From the IMG/VR virus record IMGVR_UViG_3300035698_013628, positions 1 through 23,417 of that record: a stretch of DNA of 23,417 bases. One strand, given 5' to 3'. Below, piece after piece: positions 7,435-16,656 of this stretch; within the stretch, counting starts at the first letter, position 1, and each line of letters opens with the position of its first letter. The position numbers and the translations under genes were made by a program. A model generated the notes under the pieces. The model ran no database searches, was not told the DNA's origin, and worked only from the letters and a program-made list of their open reading frames with translations. This DNA is from a virus.

Positions 7435-9537
7435 TTATTTCAATAAACAAAGATAACAAGCCAATGTAAGTCCAGCTTTTCCTGAATAAGAAAATGTTTT
7501 TTCAAAAAGAGCAATGATAACTGCCGCCCTATCAGCACTTGCTGTTGTTGTATCCTTTTTTGAGCCTAATATTACAGTATTCATATAATTTAATACAGCA
7601 TATCTAACACTTTCAGGATCAGCTTCGAGATCTTTCAAAATAGCAACGGTTTCTGTCCACTTCTTACCAGCTATCAAGGCTCTACATAAATCTATTGTGA
7701 CTGCTTTATCAACTGTAAAATTACTAACAGCCTGCATCACCATTTTATCATCTTCAATATCAATAACTGAATCTAATGTCACTAAAGCTTCTCTTGGAGA
7801 ACCATTTGAAACTCTTGAAATTTCCTTTAATGCAGCTTCTGGAAAATCTTCAACACCTTCTTTTTCAAGAACATGTTTAAGCAGTTCAATAATTGTCCTT
7901 CGTTTCAATGATTCAACCTTAAATTTTGTACATCTAGTCTTAATAGTAACCAATAGCTTTTGAGGTTCAGTTGTACACAAAACAAAATACACCCATGATG
8001 GAGTATCTTCCAATATTTTTAATATTGCATCTTTTGCATCACCCGTAAGCTTGTGACAATTATGAACTGGGAGATTATTAACAAAATAAGAAGGATGATT
8101 TTCAACTTCTAAATCATAAAATTCTACAAATCCTTGATCTCGTTCTTTATCACCAATAACACTTGAGAAAGTTCTATCATTACTTCCTCGTTTGTAAACC
8201 TCAATACTTTCCATCCTAATTGATTCAGCATTGTTGTTTTCTTTTGATCTTTCAAGATAGCATCTTTCAATCTGTGACCTTTCCCATCTAATTCTATTCC
8301 CAATCTCAACTTTTTGTTGCCTATATCCACTTTGTAATTTGTTGGATATCCAACTTTCTTCTTCCCCAATGATATTGCTACTTCCATTTGCCATCCCAAA
8401 GCTGTAGCTAAAAGCATTTGAGGTTGTGTGTAATTTCCATTTCCTCCACGTTCTCCTGGCCAAACATGTAAGGTTCCATTTATTCTTTTTGTATTCTTTG
8501 CTTTTTCTATATTCTTTGGATTGTATGATGGATTGTTCTTTTTCATTCTTTCTGAACGCATTTTGAATAATATTGCAGATTCCTTTGGATTGACTTGGTA
8601 AAACTTCAGAATACCCTTGCTTACTTTCTTTCCATGATCTGGATGACGTAGCATTTTTTGAAAGTTTGGTTGTCGATTCCTCCATTTTCCTACACATATT
8701 TGAGAACAAAATCTCTGTTGATCTTTGTGAGAAGTTATGATTTCCATTAATGTTCCACATTCTTCGCAAGGAATTTCCTTTGTTATCCCAAATCCCATCT
8801 TCAAATTTCGTAATTTTTGACCACAAGACTTTGAACAAGTTTCTTGAGTATGCTTTCGTGGAACAAACTTGTTCTTGCAAATTGGACATGCTTGACTTTT
8901 CATATTTTGGCTCCTTTAGTGAAGTTATGTTATCCAACATATCACCATCAAAACCAAAAATCAAATCATTTTGTTGCAAATCTATAGATTTTTTCCACCC
9001 ATTATTTGTAAAGAAAAGATGTTCTCTTGTAGAATAAGTAGTTAATCCATTGGAAAACTTCAACCTAACAATCCTATCCAAAGCCACTCTGTTCTTAAAA
9101 ACATTTAAAACTGTATCTATTCCAGACAAAGAGTAAACTTGATTTCCTTTTTGTATAGCTTCAATTGGCATAACACCAGAAGGAGTATTAACAAGAGATC
9201 CTTTAGCAAAACACTCATCAAGAAGATAAATTTTACATGGACCATCCATTGGAGCATACTTACAATTTGAAATAAAATCTCTAACTGTCTTAATACCCCT
9301 GTCAGTTGCTATGTTAAGTTCTTTAAAATCCCTATCAGAACACTTCAATTCATTTTTAATGATCCTACCAAATGTTGTTTTTCCACAACCAGAAGGTCCA
9401 GAAAAAAGAAAAACATGAGGTTTTCCACTTTCTCTACTTAAAATTGGTTCCAACTGTGCAATTACTTTTTCATTTCCAAAAACTTCATCAAGATTTGTTG
9501 GGCGATACTTTAAATGCAATGCTAAACTGTCATCCAT
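7435..9537 (-). CDS. dnaX: DnaX/gp44-like clamp-loader ATPase interrupted by an intein
   Basis: 700 codons, of which 109-493 are intein, leaving a 315-residue clamp-loader subunit, close to the size of T4 gp44. The extein shows HLKYRPTNLDEVFGN at the N-terminus, Walker A GPSGCGKT at 47-54, Walker B IYLLDE at 103-108 completed by CHKL after the intein, sensor-1 region FVLCTTEPQKLL, the TRCTKFKVESL segment with the arginine finger region, and sensor-2 like NGSPREAL near 578-585. The known role is to open and load the sliding clamp at primer ends using ATP. The insertion directly follows the Walker B Asp-Glu, so the unspliced protein should be inactive. AGGAGG lies 6 bases before the ATG, and the polymerase stop is 13 bases upstream. 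Confidence 0.93.
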   Translation of the reverse strand: MDDSLALHLKYRPTNLDEVFGNEKVIAQLEPILSRESGKPHVFLFSGPSGCGKTTFGRIIKNELKCSDRDFKELNIATDRGIKTVRDFISNCKYAPMDGPCKIYLLDECFAKGSLVNTPSGVMPIEAIQKGNQVYSLSGIDTVLNVFKNRVALDRIVRLKFSNGLTTYSTREHLFFTNNGWKKSIDLQQNDLIFGFDGDMLDNITSLKEPKYEKSSMSNLQEQVCSTKAYSRNLFKVLWSKITKFEDGIWDNKGNSLRRMWNINGNHNFSQRSTEILFSNMCRKMEESTTKLSKNATSSRSWKESKQGYSEVLPSQSKGICNIIQNAFRKNEKEQSIIQSKEYRKSKEYKKNKWNLTCLARRTWRKWKLHTTSNAFSYSFGMANGSSNIIGEEESWISNKLQSGYRQQKVEIGNRIRWERSQIERCYLERSKENNNAESIRMESIEVYKRGSNDRTFSSVIGDKERDQGFVEFYDLEVENHPSYFVNNLPVHNCHKLTGDAKDAILKILEDTPSWVYFVLCTTEPQKLLVTIKTRCTKFKVESLKRRTIIELLKHVLEKEGVEDFPEAALKEISRVSNGSPREALVTLDSVIDIEDDKMVMQAVSNFTVDKAVTIDLCRALIAGKKWTETVAILKDLEADPESVRYAVLNYMNTVILGSKKDTTTASADRAAVIIALFEKTFSYSGKAGLTLACYLCLLK
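8059..9213 (-). other. intein in the clamp loader (385 codons, Walker B site)
   Basis: The intein runs from Cys109 to Asn493 of the precursor, with Cys494 as the +1 residue. The N-terminal splicing block is CFAKGSLVNTPSGVMPIE. Block B is TYSTREHLFFT, with the conserved His at 173. The C-terminal blocks are FYDLEVENHPSYFVNNLP followed by VHN, giving penultimate His and terminal Asn. The Hint-domain N-part is about 103 residues and the C-part only about 22. The 260 codons between them show no DOD or HNH motif in this frame and read as a polar Ser/Asn/Lys/Glu-rich chain. In the +1 frame the same bases encode a complete endonuclease. All residues needed for standard Cys-initiated splicing are present; splicing itself is inferred. 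Confidence 0.93.
8124..8903 (-). CDS. Vsr/EDxHD-like homing endonuclease, out of frame inside the intein
   Basis: 259 residues, +1 frame relative to the intein. Two treble-clef-like zinc modules come first: C6-x2-C9 with C23-x3-C27, and C46-x2-C49 with C66-x3-C70. A basic linker rich in Lys, Asn and Pro follows (about 80-145). The C-terminal nuclease core has Asp193, then GIELDGKGH (E204, D206, H210), LKDQKK and GWKVLRFTNEEV. This matches the Vsr/DUF559-type PD-(D/E)xK fold and the EDxHD homing endonucleases. It has its own AAGGAG site 7 bases before the ATG and ends in TAG just before the C-terminal splicing block. The known family role is a double-strand cut at intein-free alleles that spreads the element. 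Independent translation is inferred from the strong ribosome site. A free-standing gene invading the intein is the likely origin. Confidence 0.88.
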   Translation of the reverse strand: MKSQACPICKNKFVPRKHTQETCSKSCGQKLRNLKMGFGITKEIPCEECGTLMEIITSHKDQQRFCSQICVGKWRNRQPNFQKMLRHPDHGKKVSKGILKFYQVNPKESAILFKMRSERMKKNNPSYNPKNIEKAKNTKRINGTLHVWPGERGGNGNYTQPQMLLATALGWQMEVAISLGKKKVGYPTNYKVDIGNKKLRLGIELDGKGHRLKDAILKDQKKTTMLNQLGWKVLRFTNEEVMIELSQVLLVIKNEIKDL

Positions 9538-9550
9538 TTCCTACCTCCTA

Positions 9551-12112
9551 TTAAACTTCTGATTTCTCATACCATGAACCATCAACAGGGGTCAGTTCAA
9601 AATCCACACCCAATGGTACTATAATCCATGGATGCTCTTCTCTAATATCTTTTGTCATCACCCTTTCTGCAACTTCAAATATATGATCCTTTTCATCTGG
9701 CACCAAATCAAACAAAATACTGTCATGGATTTGGCCTACTATTCGTGAATCCCATCCCTCCTTTTTTCTAATTTCATTTATTCTTGTTAATGACCACAAC
9801 AAAAAATGGAATGCTGTACCCTGAATTGGAGCATTAATAATTTTGTTTTTTGTTAAAAAACCTCCTCTCCTATGCCCAAAATACATTTCAATATAACCCT
9901 TCTTTTGGTAATTCTTTATCAACTCCTCTTGCCACTTCTTTACCACCTTAAAACGAGTCCAAAATTGATTCTCACATTTTTTCACATGAGATTCAAATTG
10001 AGTATAAGTCATACCCAAATGCTGCCTTGGTGTTATTCCATCAACAACCAAATCCATACAGGTTTCCCAAATACTAGAAGCGCAAGCCTTATACCAAGAT
10101 CCATAAAATTCAGCAAACACAAACAAGCTCTTTGCAAAATATCGTAAATTAGTTGATGCGCCATCCACTTTTGTCATAACTTGATCTGTTGACATCTTAA
10201 AAATATTCTTAGCTTGATCCCTATGCATACATGACTTTGGATTGTTTATATATTTCACCAATACTGGATCTTTTGTGAAACATGCAATTATTCTAACCTC
10301 AATACTCCCATAATCTATTTCACAAAGCATATTACCAGGACTTGGCATAATTCCAGACCTTGCAATTTTCTTTGCTCGTTCATCCCTAACAGGTACATTT
10401 TGAAAATTTGGAGCAGATGATGAACTACGATATGTCCTAGCTGTATGAAGATTAAAAAATGGATGCATCCTACCATCTTCAATTTCCCTGATAAATTGTG
10501 CTAGATATGTTCCCCTTACTTTATCCAACAACCTAATTTCTAAAAGATTTTTAGTAAATTCAACATCCATTTCAGTTAATACTTCTTTATCAACAGAAGG
10601 CTGACCTGTAGCTGTAAACTTTGTGGGTTCAAGACCCATTATATCAAACAACAATTCTCTAAGATCTTTAGGAGATCCTGTATTGATTTTATGTCCAGCT
10701 TTATCCTTAAACAATTTTGCTTCTTTGCCATTTGTAACTTGATCAGTCAAATCTTGTATCATAGTTGCCATTTCAACATCTTTATCTAAGTAATACTGTT
10801 CATTCATAGCAATACCAAATTCTTGAGCATCAGCCAATGCTATTAAACCATTTATCCACAATTCTTTTGCCTTACTGAGTCCTTCATTGTTTACAGCCTT
10901 TTCTTGATCCTTAAAAAGTTGATGTGTTATTATAGCATCCATCCCATCATACATCAATAAATCTTCTAATGGGACTTGATCCAATCTATTCCTAATTTCA
11001 CCTTTTTTTGGTGCTATAAATTTATCAACTGCACCATCATATTTATCAACTCCGTAGTTAATATATGCTTGAAATTTTAATCCAGAAAACTTCCTACGAT
11101 CATCCAAAAGGTGGGCCACATTCATACTACACCAATGCCAATTTTTAACTTCTATACCATAAACTTCTCGTGTCCAAGATTCTTCAAACTTCAAATTGTG
11201 AGCAATCTTTTTTATGTGTTCACTTTCTAAAATTTCAATCCACAAATCTTCAATTTCAATTAATTGAGCATCAGTCCAATGAGGATATCCTAATGGAATA
11301 GCAAAGCAATCTCCCAAATCAGTTGCAATCCCAACAGACCAGATTATATGTTCTTTGTTATATGGTTTCAACCCTGATGTTTCATAATCAAAGGTCATTT
11401 CATTTGCTTCATCTGCTGTCCTTTCAAGCAATTCCATTGCCCTATCAAAATCAGTTACACATTCCACTTTAGTTTCAAAATCAATAAAATCAGGCAAATC
11501 GCTTTTCAACAACTTACAGGCATTTTTAATATCCCTTTTAAAAACATGAGCAGCATCTTTATGTTTCAAAATAAATGAGGGATTGTATATTGGAACTATC
11601 CATGCATCAGTTGGCCTATCAGGAATATGCAATCCCCTCCATCTTTCAATATTTGAATCACTAAACCTACCCATATAGAATGAAGAAACTGCAACACCAC
11701 CCAAAAGCCAAATAAATTCAGGTTCAAGTTCATTTATCAAAACATCCAATCGTTTTTTGCATAACTTTATTTCCTTCTTACTCGGTTTGTTATCTTTTCT
11801 ATTTTTTGGTACTTTACAACATACAGCATATGTTTTCCAAAAATCAGTATCAAGATCATATCCATTCTTTCTAAGAGCCATCCTGAGCATTTGTCCTGAT
11901 TGCCCTACAAGTTGTATGCCCCTTTCATCTTCTGTATTACTTGGAGCTTCTGTTATGATTAGACACTGTGTTTTACCTTCACCAGAATATTCCATCTTTG
12001 GATTAATTGAATTTTTATAAAGTCCACAGTTTTCACAATTATCATATGGAATAAAGTCGATAAAATCGGTACTATCTAATTCCTCTGTAGTAAAAAACCC
12101 ACTATTTGCCAT
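9551..12112 (-). CDS. polA: family A DNA polymerase with N-terminal uracil-glycosylase-like domain
   Basis: 853 residues in three parts. Residues ~20-205 match family 4-type uracil-DNA glycosylase: Cys26/29, 98/99 and 118 in the Fe-S pattern, ITEAPSNTEDERG, LVGQSGQML and a WLLGGVAV strand. Residues ~235-410 are a 3'-5' exonuclease with Exo I TFDYETSG (D242, E244), Exo II AHNLKFE and Exo III YDGMDA. Residues ~415-853 are the polymerase: motif A CEIDYGSIEVR, motif B RYFAKSLFVFAEFYG, motif C GQIHDSILFD (H796, D797). The usual HDE is HDS, as in some phage enzymes. The start at 12112 has GGAGATT upstream, whereas the ATG at 12127 has none. The known role is the replicative polymerase; SPO1-type phages carry a similar fusion. 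Whether the glycosylase-like domain cuts uracil or only binds DNA is not visible. Confidence 0.95.
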   Translation of the reverse strand: MANSGFFTTEELDSTDFIDFIPYDNCENCGLYKNSINPKMEYSGEGKTQCLIITEAPSNTEDERGIQLVGQSGQMLRMALRKNGYDLDTDFWKTYAVCCKVPKNRKDNKPSKKEIKLCKKRLDVLINELEPEFIWLLGGVAVSSFYMGRFSDSNIERWRGLHIPDRPTDAWIVPIYNPSFILKHKDAAHVFKRDIKNACKLLKSDLPDFIDFETKVECVTDFDRAMELLERTADEANEMTFDYETSGLKPYNKEHIIWSVGIATDLGDCFAIPLGYPHWTDAQLIEIEDLWIEILESEHIKKIAHNLKFEESWTREVYGIEVKNWHWCSMNVAHLLDDRRKFSGLKFQAYINYGVDKYDGAVDKFIAPKKGEIRNRLDQVPLEDLLMYDGMDAIITHQLFKDQEKAVNNEGLSKAKELWINGLIALADAQEFGIAMNEQYYLDKDVEMATMIQDLTDQVTNGKEAKLFKDKAGHKINTGSPKDLRELLFDIMGLEPTKFTATGQPSVDKEVLTEMDVEFTKNLLEIRLLDKVRGTYLAQFIREIEDGRMHPFFNLHTARTYRSSSSAPNFQNVPVRDERAKKIARSGIMPSPGNMLCEIDYGSIEVRIIACFTKDPVLVKYINNPKSCMHRDQAKNIFKMSTDQVMTKVDGASTNLRYFAKSLFVFAEFYGSWYKACASSIWETCMDLVVDGITPRQHLGMTYTQFESHVKKCENQFWTRFKVVKKWQEELIKNYQKKGYIEMYFGHRRGGFLTKNKIINAPIQGTAFHFLLWSLTRINEIRKKEGWDSRIVGQIHDSILFDLVPDEKDHIFEVAERVMTKDIREEHPWIIVPLGVDFELTPVDGSWYEKSEV

Positions 12113-12129
12113 ATAATCTCCAATCATTT

Positions 12130-13197
12130 TTATGGTAATCTCATGCCATAATTATTTACTCTTTTTGGAATAATCAATCCCTTTTTCTTTATTAATCTAT
12201 TATGTTTAAAAGGTTTGTAATTCACATCATGCTGCCACCTGCCCCATTTCTGCACAATTTTAGCAACATCTGGATGTTGTGTTTGCAAAGATTTAGCCAT
12301 GTCTAATCTACCATCACCTGCATACAATTCATCAGTGTTTCCACCAATCATTTTCATGGTTTGAACTTTCTTAGCCATAAATGCATAAAATAATACAGTA
12401 CACCATCCATCTTTTAGAATTCTTAATGACAAATCTGTATCTTCATTATATCGACCTCTCCACTTATATGGAATATCATTCTTAATCAAAATACATGAAT
12501 AAATTCTTGTGTTAAGCACAAATGGAATTACATGTTTAGATTTTCTTGGAACAAACATTTCATATTGAAAGCCTGATATAGCTACATTTTCATACCGATC
12601 AACAAAGTCTTCAGCTGCACAAAACATTGGTCCACCAGCATATGTCTTTAAATTACGATTCAATCTTAAAAAACTAGCTAAATTATCATCTAATATCCAG
12701 TGCCTTTCAGCACCAATTGACACTGAATGTTCCCACACCCAATTCCTAGCTGGTATTGATCCCTGACCCAAATTACTAAATGGCAACACATAAATGTTTT
12801 TTGGGTCAATCACAGCAGCATATTGATCATATTCCTGTGGTTCAATCACTACATGATATGGAATCTTCCATTTTTCCAATGCTTTTATAGTTAATCTACT
12901 TTTCCACCTGCCTTTTGAAATCACATAAATTGGATATCTTGGGTCCATTTTATTGTAAGCATATGTATACCATTTTGTTCTTATTGATTTTGGATACCAC
13001 ATATATTTCGTTTTTGAGTGTATTTGTTGATCCATTAATTTGGCAAATGCATCAACATCATTTTGATTATGAAAATTAACCTGTATAGAAGTATATGGAG
13101 TCAATTCTTCTTGACTAAATTCTGGCATATCTTGCCATTCTTTTTTCCATTCACTACTAAATTCATCACTTATAAAAAATCCATCATTAATCTTCAT
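12130..13197 (-). CDS. TET-associated-type glycosyltransferase, second copy
   Basis: 355 residues, paralog of the next gene upstream. The N-terminal ~70 residues hold a GFF peptide at 6-8, WQDMPEF, and the small IQVNF...AFAKLM...TKYMWYP domain. The glycosyltransferase part starts at YPIYVISKGRW (88-98). It has IEPQEYDQYAAVID, GQGSIPARNWVWEHS, HWILDDNLASF (DDN at 170-172), VAISGFQYEMF, YNEDTDLSLRIL and TDELYAGDGR. This is the GT-A-like family that Aravind and colleagues linked to TET/JBP phage DNA modification (TAGT/GREB1). In that setting the enzymes transfer sugars to modified bases; the target here is inferred. The ATG lies 11 bases inside the end of the first copy, with AAGGA 5 bases upstream. 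It ends 17 bases before the polymerase start. Confidence 0.83.
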   Translation of the reverse strand: MKINDGFFISDEFSSEWKKEWQDMPEFSQEELTPYTSIQVNFHNQNDVDAFAKLMDQQIHSKTKYMWYPKSIRTKWYTYAYNKMDPRYPIYVISKGRWKSRLTIKALEKWKIPYHVVIEPQEYDQYAAVIDPKNIYVLPFSNLGQGSIPARNWVWEHSVSIGAERHWILDDNLASFLRLNRNLKTYAGGPMFCAAEDFVDRYENVAISGFQYEMFVPRKSKHVIPFVLNTRIYSCILIKNDIPYKWRGRYNEDTDLSLRILKDGWCTVLFYAFMAKKVQTMKMIGGNTDELYAGDGRLDMAKSLQTQHPDVAKIVQKWGRWQHDVNYKPFKHNRLIKKKGLIIPKRVNNYGMRLP

Positions 13198-14266
13198 TAT
13201 ATTCCTTTAAAACCATGTCATAATTATTCACACCTTTTGGCACAATCAAGCCCTTTTTCTTTATTAAGCCATTATATTTAAAACCTTTATAATTCACTTG
13301 ATGTTGATACCTGCCCCATTTCGTTCTTATACAAGCAATATCTGGGTGCTGTGTTTGCAAAGATTTAGCCATGTCTAATCTACCATCACCTGCATACAAT
13401 TCATCAGTGTTTCCACCCCCCATTTTCATTGTGGCTGTTTTATCAGCCAAAAATGTATTAAACAATACTGTACACAAACCACCTTTTAGTGCTCGTATAC
13501 ATAAATCTGTATCTTCATTATAACTTCCTCTCCACCTATATGGAATATCATTCTTAATCAAAATACATGAATAAACTCTAGTATTAAGATAAAATGGAGG
13601 ATATACACCACTCCAATGACAAAATGAATGGTAATGAAAACCTGATATAGCTACATTTTCATACCGATCAACAAAATCTTCAACACATTTGAAAATAGCC
13701 CCAGTTGTTACACGTATTTTTTTATTATTATTAAAACGATAAAACCAACGCAGATTATCATCTAATATCCAATGTCTTTTGGCACCTAATGACATTGAAT
13801 GTTCCCACACCCAGTTTCTTGCAGGTATTGATCCTTGACCCAAATTACTAAACGGTAATACCAACAACTTCTTTGGGTCAATCACAGCAGCATACTGATC
13901 ATATTCCTGTGGTTCAATCACTACATGATACGATTGATTAATATCATCTAATGCTTTTACAGTTAACCTTTGATTACATTTCCATCTATTTTTTGAAATC
14001 ACATAAATTGGATAAGTTGCATTCACCTCCTTTCCGACATATCTCATTGTTTTTGGTTCAAATCTATTAGGAACTGTATAATGCACAAATTTAGTTTGAG
14101 CAGTAATTACTTGACCCACCTGTTCTGCAAATTGATTCATTTGTTTTTCATCTTTAAAATTAACAGTTATTGATGCAAATGGTTTTTTATTCTCATTAAT
14201 ATATTCTGGCATATCTTGCCATACTTCATCCATCACATCAATAACTTCGCCATCAAAAAATCCCAT
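13187..14266 (-). CDS. TET-associated-type glycosyltransferase, first copy
   Basis: 359 residues, same architecture as its downstream neighbour and clearly paralogous along the full length. An MGFFDG start, WQDMPEY and the ITVNF...QFAEQVGQ domain (residues 1-65) precede the catalytic part: YPIYVISKNRW, IEPQEYDQYAAVID, GQGSIPARNWVWEHS, HWILDDNL (DDN at 169-171), YNEDTDLCIRAL (EDTD at 251-254) and GNTDELYAGDGR. The acidic DDN and EDTD motifs are the likely metal and sugar-nucleotide sites of a GT-A fold. Changes in the 173-190 region (FYRFNNNKK versus FLRLNRNLK) and in 210-230 suggest a different acceptor or sugar from the second copy. The ATG at 14266 follows AAGGGG and the stop of the 63-residue gene (9-base gap). 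DNA glycosylation is the leading hypothesis; protein or RNA targets are not excluded. Confidence 0.83.
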   Translation of the reverse strand: MGFFDGEVIDVMDEVWQDMPEYINENKKPFASITVNFKDEKQMNQFAEQVGQVITAQTKFVHYTVPNRFEPKTMRYVGKEVNATYPIYVISKNRWKCNQRLTVKALDDINQSYHVVIEPQEYDQYAAVIDPKKLLVLPFSNLGQGSIPARNWVWEHSMSLGAKRHWILDDNLRWFYRFNNNKKIRVTTGAIFKCVEDFVDRYENVAISGFHYHSFCHWSGVYPPFYLNTRVYSCILIKNDIPYRWRGSYNEDTDLCIRALKGGLCTVLFNTFLADKTATMKMGGGNTDELYAGDGRLDMAKSLQTQHPDIACIRTKWGRYQHQVNYKGFKYNGLIKKKGLIVPKGVNNYDMVLKEYNED

Positions 14267-14477: not shown

Positions 14478-15623
14478 CTATTCACTTTTCCATGAATCAC
14501 CAACCCAATATTGAGATACCAATGCATTCATTTCTTCTTCAGTCTTGATATTCTTACCCCAATATGGAATGTCGCATCTAATGGAAGTGAATGAACATTT
14601 AGAACAATACTCATGAGATCGTCTATCTTTATGATACAACTTATTTCTCACATCCTGCATATATGAACCCAACCAAAATTTAAAAAATCCATCTAATCCT
14701 TCTTTAATATTTCCAAACTCATTAACTGTATGCCTTAAATAATCAAAGCAACAAAATATAAATGTCCCATCATAATTCACATTCACAAACTTATTTGGTA
14801 AGTCGCACCTCCTATCTGGAGGCGATGTGACTTTTCTCATTCCAAACTTCCCTGCAGCTTTCCAATCCAAATCATTAAAAAAGGTTTGCAAATAACCCCT
14901 TCCAACTTTTCTTGTTGACCAATTATATGGATTTTCAGCCAACATTATTATATGAACATCAGGATTATTTTGATTTGTAAAAACACTTGGAACACACTTT
15001 GGTTTATGATCTTGATGATACCAATAATATCCAGAATCATCAGCAAGCTTCTTATGATCATCATACGGTGCATACATATCCACAAACACCATATTCAATC
15101 CAGCTTCAAATAATTGCTTATACGTCAACTTACCATTCATTAATTGAGTACCATTCGTATATGTCAATATTTGAATATTTGGACAAATAGATCTTGCAAT
15201 ATGTATAAACTCTACAAAATCTGGATGTAGTGTAGGTTCCCCTGCATTACACAATTCCAAACGTGTAAAAGGAGCAACCTTTTGGATAGTTTCTAACAAT
15301 GAAACCCAAACGTCTTTTTTCATAAAATGAATTTCATTTTTTGGAAACAATCGTGTTGGACAAAAAGCACAGGCTAAATTACAACCTCGTGTGATTTCTA
15401 CCCACCATCCCCAAGTATTCAACCTACCAAGTGGGCGTTTTGGATTCTTACACATGGTACTAAGATGTTCATGCATTGATGAATTCAATGTCTTATCAGA
15501 TAAAAGATTATCTTTGTATGCTTTAAATTCATCATCAACAACTAACTTTTGCTTTGCCTGTTTTGGCAACTCAAAAGGCAGGGATGAATAAAACTCATTA
15601 GGTAAATCATCAAAAAATCCCAT
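14478..15623 (-). CDS. radical SAM enzyme with C-terminal Cys-rich (SPASM-like) region
   Basis: 381 residues. The Fe-S/SAM motif is EITRGCNLACAFCPT (C81-x3-C85-x2-C88). A GEPTLHPDF motif follows, the usual SAM-binding GE element, then an ILTYTNGTQL strand. In the C-terminal third, cysteines in CDLPNK, FIFCCFDY and YCSKCSFTSIRC match an auxiliary cluster region (SPASM or twitch type). The N-terminus is MGFFDDL, like the next genes. The start at 15623 has GAGG 6 bases upstream and lies one base past the clamp stop; a TTG four codons earlier is possible. Radical SAM enzymes of this type add or rearrange groups by radical chemistry. Its position before two TET-associated-type glycosyltransferases suggests that it makes or alters the base or sugar they act on. 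The substrate is unknown. Confidence 0.88.
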   Translation of the reverse strand: MGFFDDLPNEFYSSLPFELPKQAKQKLVVDDEFKAYKDNLLSDKTLNSSMHEHLSTMCKNPKRPLGRLNTWGWWVEITRGCNLACAFCPTRLFPKNEIHFMKKDVWVSLLETIQKVAPFTRLELCNAGEPTLHPDFVEFIHIARSICPNIQILTYTNGTQLMNGKLTYKQLFEAGLNMVFVDMYAPYDDHKKLADDSGYYWYHQDHKPKCVPSVFTNQNNPDVHIIMLAENPYNWSTRKVGRGYLQTFFNDLDWKAAGKFGMRKVTSPPDRRCDLPNKFVNVNYDGTFIFCCFDYLRHTVNEFGNIKEGLDGFFKFWLGSYMQDVRNKLYHKDRRSHEYCSKCSFTSIRCDIPYWGKNIKTEEEMNALVSQYWVGDSWKSE

Positions 15624-15624
15624 A

Positions 15625-16656
15625 TCAAACCTCAAATTTTGTCAACCAAAGAAGATGCCTAAAATTATCCAATTCAAATAATGCCTTATCCTGTCCCAAT
15701 ATAACTTCATCTGTTTTTTCCAACATCTTCTGTAAAAAGTCAGGATTAACCTTAAATGTCATTGGATCATGATCCCAGTATTCTCCTTCAACAATTGTTT
15801 CAGTCCATCCAACTTCTTTCTTTTCACAATACAATACAATATTTTCTTTTGTGAATGTGATTTCTATTAACTGATCCTGAGTTGATTCAGATTTATCAAC
15901 CATTACTGCCACAACACTCAAAGAATCAATCAAATTTGGAAGCTTAGTTTTTGTGCCATCAAATGCAAAAAGATAATCAGTTTTTGGATATTTTATAGGT
16001 GGAATAAGTCTACAACACACGATAACATCTGCATCTGTAGAAAAACAAATCCATGATTCCCCTGCTGTTATGGCATACTCTTTTATAGTTGGAAAATTCA
16101 AAATAAACTTAGCTGATGAAGCTGGTATCAAAACTGCATCCATTGAAGCATCCAATGTGTATTCAGATATTCTCAACTCATCACTTGATATCATCTTATT
16201 ACCAGACACTTTTATTCCTGTTAATGCAATTTTATTTGAATCTTTGGATGTTGTAAACCTACACAAATCCAACCCTGTTATAAATCCTTTTGGAAGTGGT
16301 TTAAAATCCAAATTACTAATATCCAACGTATCCACACCCTTTAAATATTCATCAACTGCAAAACTTGAAATTTCAGCTTTTGTCTTACCAGATTTAATAA
16401 GCAATTTTTTATCTTCAAATTCTATATCAACCACAGATGACAAAGTTGGAAGTAGTGCAAGCATTTCTGTTGCTGGTATTCCACATGTAAAATCAAACTT
16501 ATCAAATGGATGTATGATGCATACAACATTGTTATATGTCAAAATATCTTGACCATCTATAACGAAAACTGGTTTATCACCAGCTAAACCTTCTGTTGGA
16601 AGTCCAAATTTTAAGCTATTCAAAATTCCAACTAATTCATCTCTATCTATTTCCAT
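15625..16656 (-). CDS. dnaN: DnaN-like DNA polymerase sliding clamp
   Basis: 343 residues with repeated beta-rich modules and clamp-like turns: IDRDELVGILNSLKFGL at the N-terminus, KLLIKSGKTKAEISSF, KGFITGLDLCRFTTSKDSNKIALTGIKV near the middle, and RISEYTLDASMDAVLIPASSAKFIL. The last matches the family's second-domain EFPxxR-like region in layout. The known role is a ring that tethers the polymerase, loaded by the DnaX-like protein. The start at 16656 is firm: AAGGAG lies 6 bases upstream and the terminator hairpin sits just before it, so the in-frame codons back to 16764 are not used. Length is near the bacterial beta clamp (about 370). The clamp is first in the long downstream operon. Assignment is by pattern and context; the termini are not typical of any well-known clamp. 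Confidence 0.75.
   Translation of the reverse strand: MEIDRDELVGILNSLKFGLPTEGLAGDKPVFVIDGQDILTYNNVVCIIHPFDKFDFTCGIPATEMLALLPTLSSVVDIEFEDKKLLIKSGKTKAEISSFAVDEYLKGVDTLDISNLDFKPLPKGFITGLDLCRFTTSKDSNKIALTGIKVSGNKMISSDELRISEYTLDASMDAVLIPASSAKFILNFPTIKEYAITAGESWICFSTDADVIVCCRLIPPIKYPKTDYLFAFDGTKTKLPNLIDSLSVVAVMVDKSESTQDQLIEITFTKENIVLYCEKKEVGWTETIVEGEYWDHDPMTFKVNPDFLQKMLEKTDEVILGQDKALFELDNFRHLLWLTKFEV

Follow-up and report, generated by a model that had tools for sequence, protein, structure and literature searches.

An overlapping, out-of-frame nuclease gene inside a phage clamp-loader intein, and its recurrence in other phages

Results

The viral DNA analyzed here (the window, all 23,417 nucleotides [nt] of IMG/VR record IMGVR_UViG_3300035698_013628) carries a clamp-loader gene interrupted by an intein, inside which lies a separate nuclease gene in the +1 reading frame. 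We conclude that this is very probably a mobile intein with an out-of-frame, overlapping homing-endonuclease gene, for which splicing, cleavage, and homing are predicted from sequence and structural models. Because the same arrangement recurs in about 140 distinct loci, the overlapping-nuclease intein is a widespread, old, and overlooked class of mobile element, neither an oddity nor a sequencing error.

Anatomy of the locus

The precursor open reading frame (ORF) (7435..9537, on the minus strand, as are all features of the locus) has 700 codons, is open along its whole length, and encodes a DnaX-like clamp loader plus the intein, with the Pfam domains DNA_pol3_delta2, AAA, and Intein_splicing sharing one frame. 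Clamp-loader homologues without an intein align to the window protein. The N-extein (residues 1 to 108; 9214..9537) ends in the Walker B motif, ...YLLDE; the intein (CFAKGSL...LPVHN; 8059..9213) is 385 amino acids (aa) long; and the C-extein (7435..8058, stop codon included) begins with CHKLTGDAKDAI. The first Cys of the intein (C1) is precursor residue 109 and its last Asn is residue 493 (DE^CFAKGS...VHN^CHK), and the insertion splits Walker B between the acidic pair and Cys-His (DE^CH). The residues essential for splicing (C1, TREH in block B, the terminal HN, and the +1 Cys) are present. An earlier note on this DNA, made from the sequence alone, had described complete splicing blocks in one continuous frame with the endonuclease outside that frame, and both statements were borne out.

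The nuclease gene (8124..8903) has 259 codons, from an ATG to a TAG, and Pfam found a DUF559 domain, C-terminal in the protein, in this +1 ORF. Counted along the precursor, its ATG is at residue 212 and its stop at residue 471, the offsets that the note had given, and, as also claimed there, a Shine-Dalgarno sequence precedes it (AAAGGAG, 8911..8917, 7 nt 5′ of the ATG). Because a TAA in the nuclease frame (8916..8918) lies five codons upstream of the ATG, ribosomes could not simply slide into that frame from far upstream. The C-terminal splicing blocks (FYDLEVENHPSYFVNNLPVHN; 8059..8123) are 3′ of the nuclease stop. The nuclease gene had been thought to fill exactly the gap between the blocks, but the final ∼33 of its codons lie over a folded intein strand and are dual-coded.

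Selection on both reading frames

Stop codons were counted in the intein frame across the nuclease gene and compared with the numbers expected when the nuclease protein was kept and its synonymous codons were permuted or, alternatively, when extein codon usage was applied. In the window there were no stops, versus a mean of 15.9 in permuted sequences and 28.8 with extein usage; none of 1,000 permutations was open, which excludes a chance open frame. The third frame of the same region has 27 stops. Across the 91 nonredundant loci used for stop, codon, and host-gene counts (21,697 nuclease codons), the intein frame again had no stops, versus 1,120 (permuted) or 1,623 (extein usage) expected, whereas the third frame was not depleted (1,958 stops versus 1,773 expected). 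Relatives in which the nuclease is free-standing (L041, L135, L138), in frame (L045, L046), or in a fractured gene (L042) carry 12 to 31 stops in the same frame, numbers near the permuted expectation, with slightly fewer in L138.

These counts also bear on the possibility that the window holds a fractured gene with a split intein, the host halves trans-splicing and the continuous host frame being incidental. True fractured relatives of the same family do exist (L042 has 25 host-frame stops between its intein halves), but the absence of stops where ∼16 to 29 were expected in the window, and more than 1,000 across the class, led us to reject this reading for the window as extremely unlikely. An RNA-level intron was rejected as well: the window gave no match to Rfam, and on both sides selection acts on the intein frame at the level of protein.

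The second line of evidence is codon-position variability among 38 related intein pairs. Upstream of the nuclease gene, intein position 3 was the most variable (0.40); in the body of the gene, it was nuclease position 3 (0.45); and after the nuclease stop, it was intein position 3 again (0.41). In the 3′ overlap, all codon positions were less variable (0.26, 0.16, and 0.19). Because the most variable codon phase switches at the nuclease borders, we conclude from these alignments that both frames are under selection. It could be supposed instead that the middle of the intein frame encodes a functional domain and that the nuclease ORF is a secondary overprint upon it. The intein-frame passenger is in fact slightly more hydrophilic than its synonymous permutations (mean z of −1.4). 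However, this small shift is confounded by stop avoidance, and we dropped selection for passenger hydrophilicity as an explanation. Within the gene, moreover, nuclease codon positions 1 and 2 are conserved while position 3 varies, and the modeled passenger is poorly ordered whereas the nuclease is not (see below), so we hold an overprint to be highly improbable.

The third line of evidence concerns initiation. A Shine-Dalgarno sequence was found at the first ATG in 42 of 89 loci, versus 79 of 655 internal ATGs (P = 1e-13), and across loci the nuclease start lies a median of 27 nt after an in-frame stop. Both observations speak against programmed frameshifting into and out of the nuclease frame, by which an intein-nuclease fusion would be made and the nuclease would be a domain of the intein. 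Phages are known to use frameshifting, and the two frames differ by one base, but selection holds the intein frame open from end to end of the nuclease gene, and ribosomes that shifted frame would have no need of this. We consider frameshifting very unlikely.

Dual coding at the 3′ end of the nuclease gene

The core motif of the nuclease, GWKVLRF(T/S)N, reads (R)VES(V/I)E(I/V)Y in the intein frame. Its Gly is encoded by GGG in 77 of 90 cases, versus 359 of 1,223 Gly codons elsewhere in the same genes (Fisher's test, 2e-26) and 9 of 63 in other Gly-Trp pairs. Its Val codon ends in A or G in 72 of 74 cases, versus 66 of 109 elsewhere (1e-9). In the AlphaFold models, the same stretch forms nuclease strand 232 to 237 and intein strand 330 to 339, and a mini-intein of a related site has RVKSARYV at the corresponding place. 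The dual-coded segment of the window (8128..8226) comprises intein residues 330 to 362 (the strand ESIRMESIEV and beyond) and the C-terminal end of the nuclease (the strand WKVLRF and two helices). Because the codon bias fits the intein and both models place a strand there, these ∼33 codons are predicted to encode ordered structure in both frames.

Predicted folds of the two proteins

The residues expected of a splicing intein are conserved across inteins: C1 in 72 of 72, T or S at position 62 in 72 of 72, H65 in 71 of 72, H384 in 67 of 72, and N385 in 72 of 72. AlphaFold gave a confidence (pLDDT) of ∼97 for residues 1 to ∼90 and 330 to 385 of the window intein, the dual-coded strand included, and VIA-align matched the model to solved inteins with Z values of 19.0 (2lwy) and 18.1 (gp41-1). 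The window intein is thus modeled as a Hint fold. For the intein-frame passenger (intein residues ∼100 to 328), pLDDT was ∼50, as expected of a passenger, versus 93.8 overall for the nuclease.

With the nuclease model, Foldseek ranked first the catalytic domain of I-Bth0305I (3r3p; E = 1.6e-3, probability 1.00) and then 3hrl; a profile search of the PDB agreed (E = 6e-4 for 3r3p and 1e-11 for 3hrl). Residues E204, D206, H210, and D219 are invariant in 67 sequences; the aligned positions of 3r3p lack the D and the H. N-terminal to this DUF559/EDxHD-like domain, the alignment and scattered Pfam hits indicate zinc-finger-like Cys motifs. By sequence and model, the nuclease is probably related to I-Bth0305I, of the EDxHD homing endonuclease family, and is predicted to cleave DNA.

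Recurrence in other phages and prophages

When phage records were searched with tblastn, relatives of the nuclease turned up within annotated helicase genes. In all five loci studied closely (CP-T1, MR14, Vibrio 104E43.1, K391, and 1.088.O), the nuclease is encoded in the +1 frame relative to the helicase gene annotated there, and in none of these five records is the nuclease gene annotated. In scans of IMG/VR and of GTDB genomes, classification by profile models of the nuclease and both intein halves assigned the nested +1 layout to 206 loci, of which 141 are nonredundant at 85% nuclease identity. They include finished phages (CP-T1, MR14, and many Vibrio phages), prophages, and ∼200 contigs. 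The earlier note had proposed such a search of phage and metagenome inteins but wrote of what seemed a single case; the layout that it described is real and belongs to an old and widespread class.

Recurrence decides against the simplest artifact, in which indels from assembly or sequencing near 8124 and 8903 took an endonuclease domain of the ordinary kind out of the intein frame. Other inteins do hold in-frame nucleases of a related group (L045, L046), but annotated phage genomes that come from several projects show the +1 layout too, as do the ∼200 contigs, and neither stop depletion nor dual-coding codon bias can arise from indels. The chance that the layout is such an artifact is negligible, and we rejected it.

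None of the 206 nested loci has the nuclease in the +2 frame, because the conserved motif RMKKNNP forces a TGA there (ATG followed by A); nearly all full-length cases have many stops in that frame. In the 91-locus set, the host genes were clamp loaders (42) and DExH helicases (48), with the intein at DE^C(H) in almost all. One helicase ORF (L038, 1095-4730) has, besides the intein with the nested nuclease, another intein-like insertion 5′ of it, apparently at the lysine of Walker A (GSGK^C).

Alleles and lateral movement

In Vibrio phage helicases, one site occurs in three states. It is empty, exactly at DE^CH, in 141O35-1, 1.024.O, and others; it holds a 450-bp mini-intein without a nuclease in K459, K389, and others; and it holds a 1,068-bp nested intein in 1.088.O, 1.027.O, and K391. 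The mini-intein is only ∼53% identical and so is a different allele, not a deletion product. A comparison of 1.088.O with 1.027.O gave identities of 78% and 76% for the two exteins and 95.8% for the intein. Because the inteins are far more alike than the exteins, we conclude from these alignments that the nested intein moved between lineages as a unit. Free-standing nucleases (L138, 3842-4426; L213, 3358-3996; L225, 3516-4184) lie directly upstream of intein-less DExH helicase ORFs (DESH, DEAH, and DECH).

In nuclease trees, whose root is not fixed and whose supports are moderate, the nested state covers both host gene types and deep branches, and split and free-standing forms are scattered tips. 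This suggests that fractured genes and free nucleases can descend from nested inteins. In L016 (2926-3774, on the same contig as L080) and L042 (2213-4433), intein halves in the same phase flank the nuclease, with one and many intein-frame stops, respectively, and L042 keeps the dual-coded strand, ERVESIEIY. L016 is intermediate among the relatives, with one stop versus ∼15 expected; it is possibly just split, just inactivated, or an error. The note's proposal of an intermediate toward split inteins is plausible, given that L016 and L042 are scattered tips inside the nested tree, but the unfixed root limits it. The in-frame relatives (L045, 901-4356; L046, 1495-3612; L180; and L181, assigned by its C-terminal block) have the nuclease in frame inside inteins of phage genes of another kind, which possibly encode MuF-like capsid proteins. 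They sit on a long branch and do not decide in which direction evolution ran.

Neighboring genes

Upstream of the precursor, the window encodes a DNA polymerase A with a fused N-terminal domain of the uracil-DNA-glycosylase superfamily (9551-12127, minus strand). Beyond it are two tandem genes for TET-associated glycosyltransferases (TAGT) (12130-14266, minus strand) and a radical SAM/SPASM gene (14478-15635). The TAGT pair and the radical SAM/SPASM gene suggest a phage with hypermodified DNA bases.

Discussion

The mechanism that we propose is as follows. Ribosomes in the host frame would read straight through the clamp-loader gene to give the 700-aa precursor, in which the two Hint halves (intein residues 1 to ∼95 and ∼330 to 385) would fold around a nonhomologous passenger of ∼230 residues; the intein would then splice out and restore a 315-aa clamp loader. 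Other ribosomes would start at the internal Shine-Dalgarno sequence and ATG and make the 259-aa nuclease in the +1 frame. This nuclease would cut intein-less alleles at the Walker B codons (DE^CH), and repair would copy the whole intein across. Stops in the intein frame are selected against through the nuclease gene, and the final ∼33 codons of that gene double as code for a Hint strand, so that nuclease and intein are physically entangled. That one locus yields a cis-splicing precursor and a separately initiated nuclease, as the earlier note held, is supported by the stop depletion, the switch in codon phase, the Shine-Dalgarno enrichment, and the mobile plus and minus alleles. The steps of internal initiation, splicing, cleavage, and homing are those that the sequences and models predict.

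Several points weigh against this account. The analysis is computational throughout, from the anatomy, the selection on two frames, the recurrence, and the lateral movement to the two predicted folds, and the window is one metagenomic phage contig. The evidence for lateral transfer and empty alleles comes from Vibrio phage helicases and not from the clamp loader of the window. About half of the first ATGs have no clear Shine-Dalgarno sequence by the score used, which leaves some of the starts in doubt. Foldseek gives the nuclease fold modest support (the E value given above). Finally, the nested class was defined in part by an open intein frame, a bias that the control relatives and the few broken cases make minor.

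The overlap may also act as a genetic lock, an idea that we hold tentatively and with a little more doubt than confidence. The part of the gene that encodes the catalytic core doubles as code for an intein strand, and the nuclease frame is confined within the ORF of a required protein; deletion or frameshift of the nuclease would therefore destroy splicing of a replication protein. The nuclease could in this way escape the usual degeneration and loss, and nested inteins could be a long-lived source of fractured genes, split inteins, and free-standing nucleases. All 141 nonredundant nested nucleases are unbroken, which is consistent with a lock but does not prove it; the status of the mini-inteins as a different allele and the scattered positions of split and free-standing forms in the trees are consistent with it as well. 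The locus search could favor intact copies, however, and such a lock would not stop nonsense changes confined to the nuclease frame.

So large a class was overlooked because the long host ORF is all that annotation records (for example, the "putative helicase" of CP-T1). It provides a natural and conserved example of dual coding that joins two unrelated folds, a data set of ∼140 natural variants, and natural inteins that tolerate passengers of ∼230 residues of varied sequence. It also supplies a concrete link between cis-inteins and fractured genes, suggests in testable form how loss of a homing endonuclease can be avoided, and is a source of uncharacterized EDxHD-type nucleases that would be directed at Walker B coding sequences.

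Inteins are usually described as having an in-frame endonuclease domain, having none, or being split. The window intein shares with cis-splicing inteins of the PI-SceI type the Hint fold, the splicing residues, insertion in conserved ATPase motifs, an endonuclease between the halves, and known empty alleles. It differs in that its endonuclease is not part of the intein polypeptide but is a separate +1 gene (as in 206 of 206 nested loci), the 3′ end of which also encodes a Hint strand. In 2009, Dassa et al. reportedly described fractured genes in which split inteins occur together with EDxHD endonucleases, work that is cited in PMC12350094 and PMC3229294. These likewise have an EDxHD/Vsr-like endonuclease gene between intein halves in phage replication genes, but their host gene is broken in two, as in L042, whereas the host frame of the window is unbroken and selected to be so.

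Inteins and homing endonucleases are both well known. In the open-access literature searched, however, we found no earlier description of an intein with an overlapping, out-of-frame, and partly dual-coded nuclease gene, and to that extent the note's claim of novelty stands. There is a partial precedent in out-of-frame endonuclease insertions that lack a splicing domain (PMC11855218). In this nearest case, the ShiLan domain and Pacc40, an uninterrupted phage host ORF hides an HNH endonuclease in another frame; translated in the host frame, the insert looks disordered, as in the window, and it is thought to be retained in the protein (PMC11855218). That insert has no detectable Shine-Dalgarno sequence, whereas the window has a DUF559/EDxHD-like nuclease gene and a complete intein. 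I-Bth0305I (3r3p) and the DUF559 protein 3hrl are the best matches, in sequence and fold, of the C-terminal domain of the nuclease; I-Bth0305I is intron encoded, whereas the nested nucleases are longer proteins that have zinc-finger-like Cys motifs and a segment reading (S)ERMKKNNP. Phage group II introns carry CapR-like plus EDxHD/Vsr-like endonucleases (PMC12350094); these are also intron encoded, and their likeness to the nested nucleases is one of modular layout, small N-terminal domains followed by an EDxHD/Vsr-like domain, again in phage.
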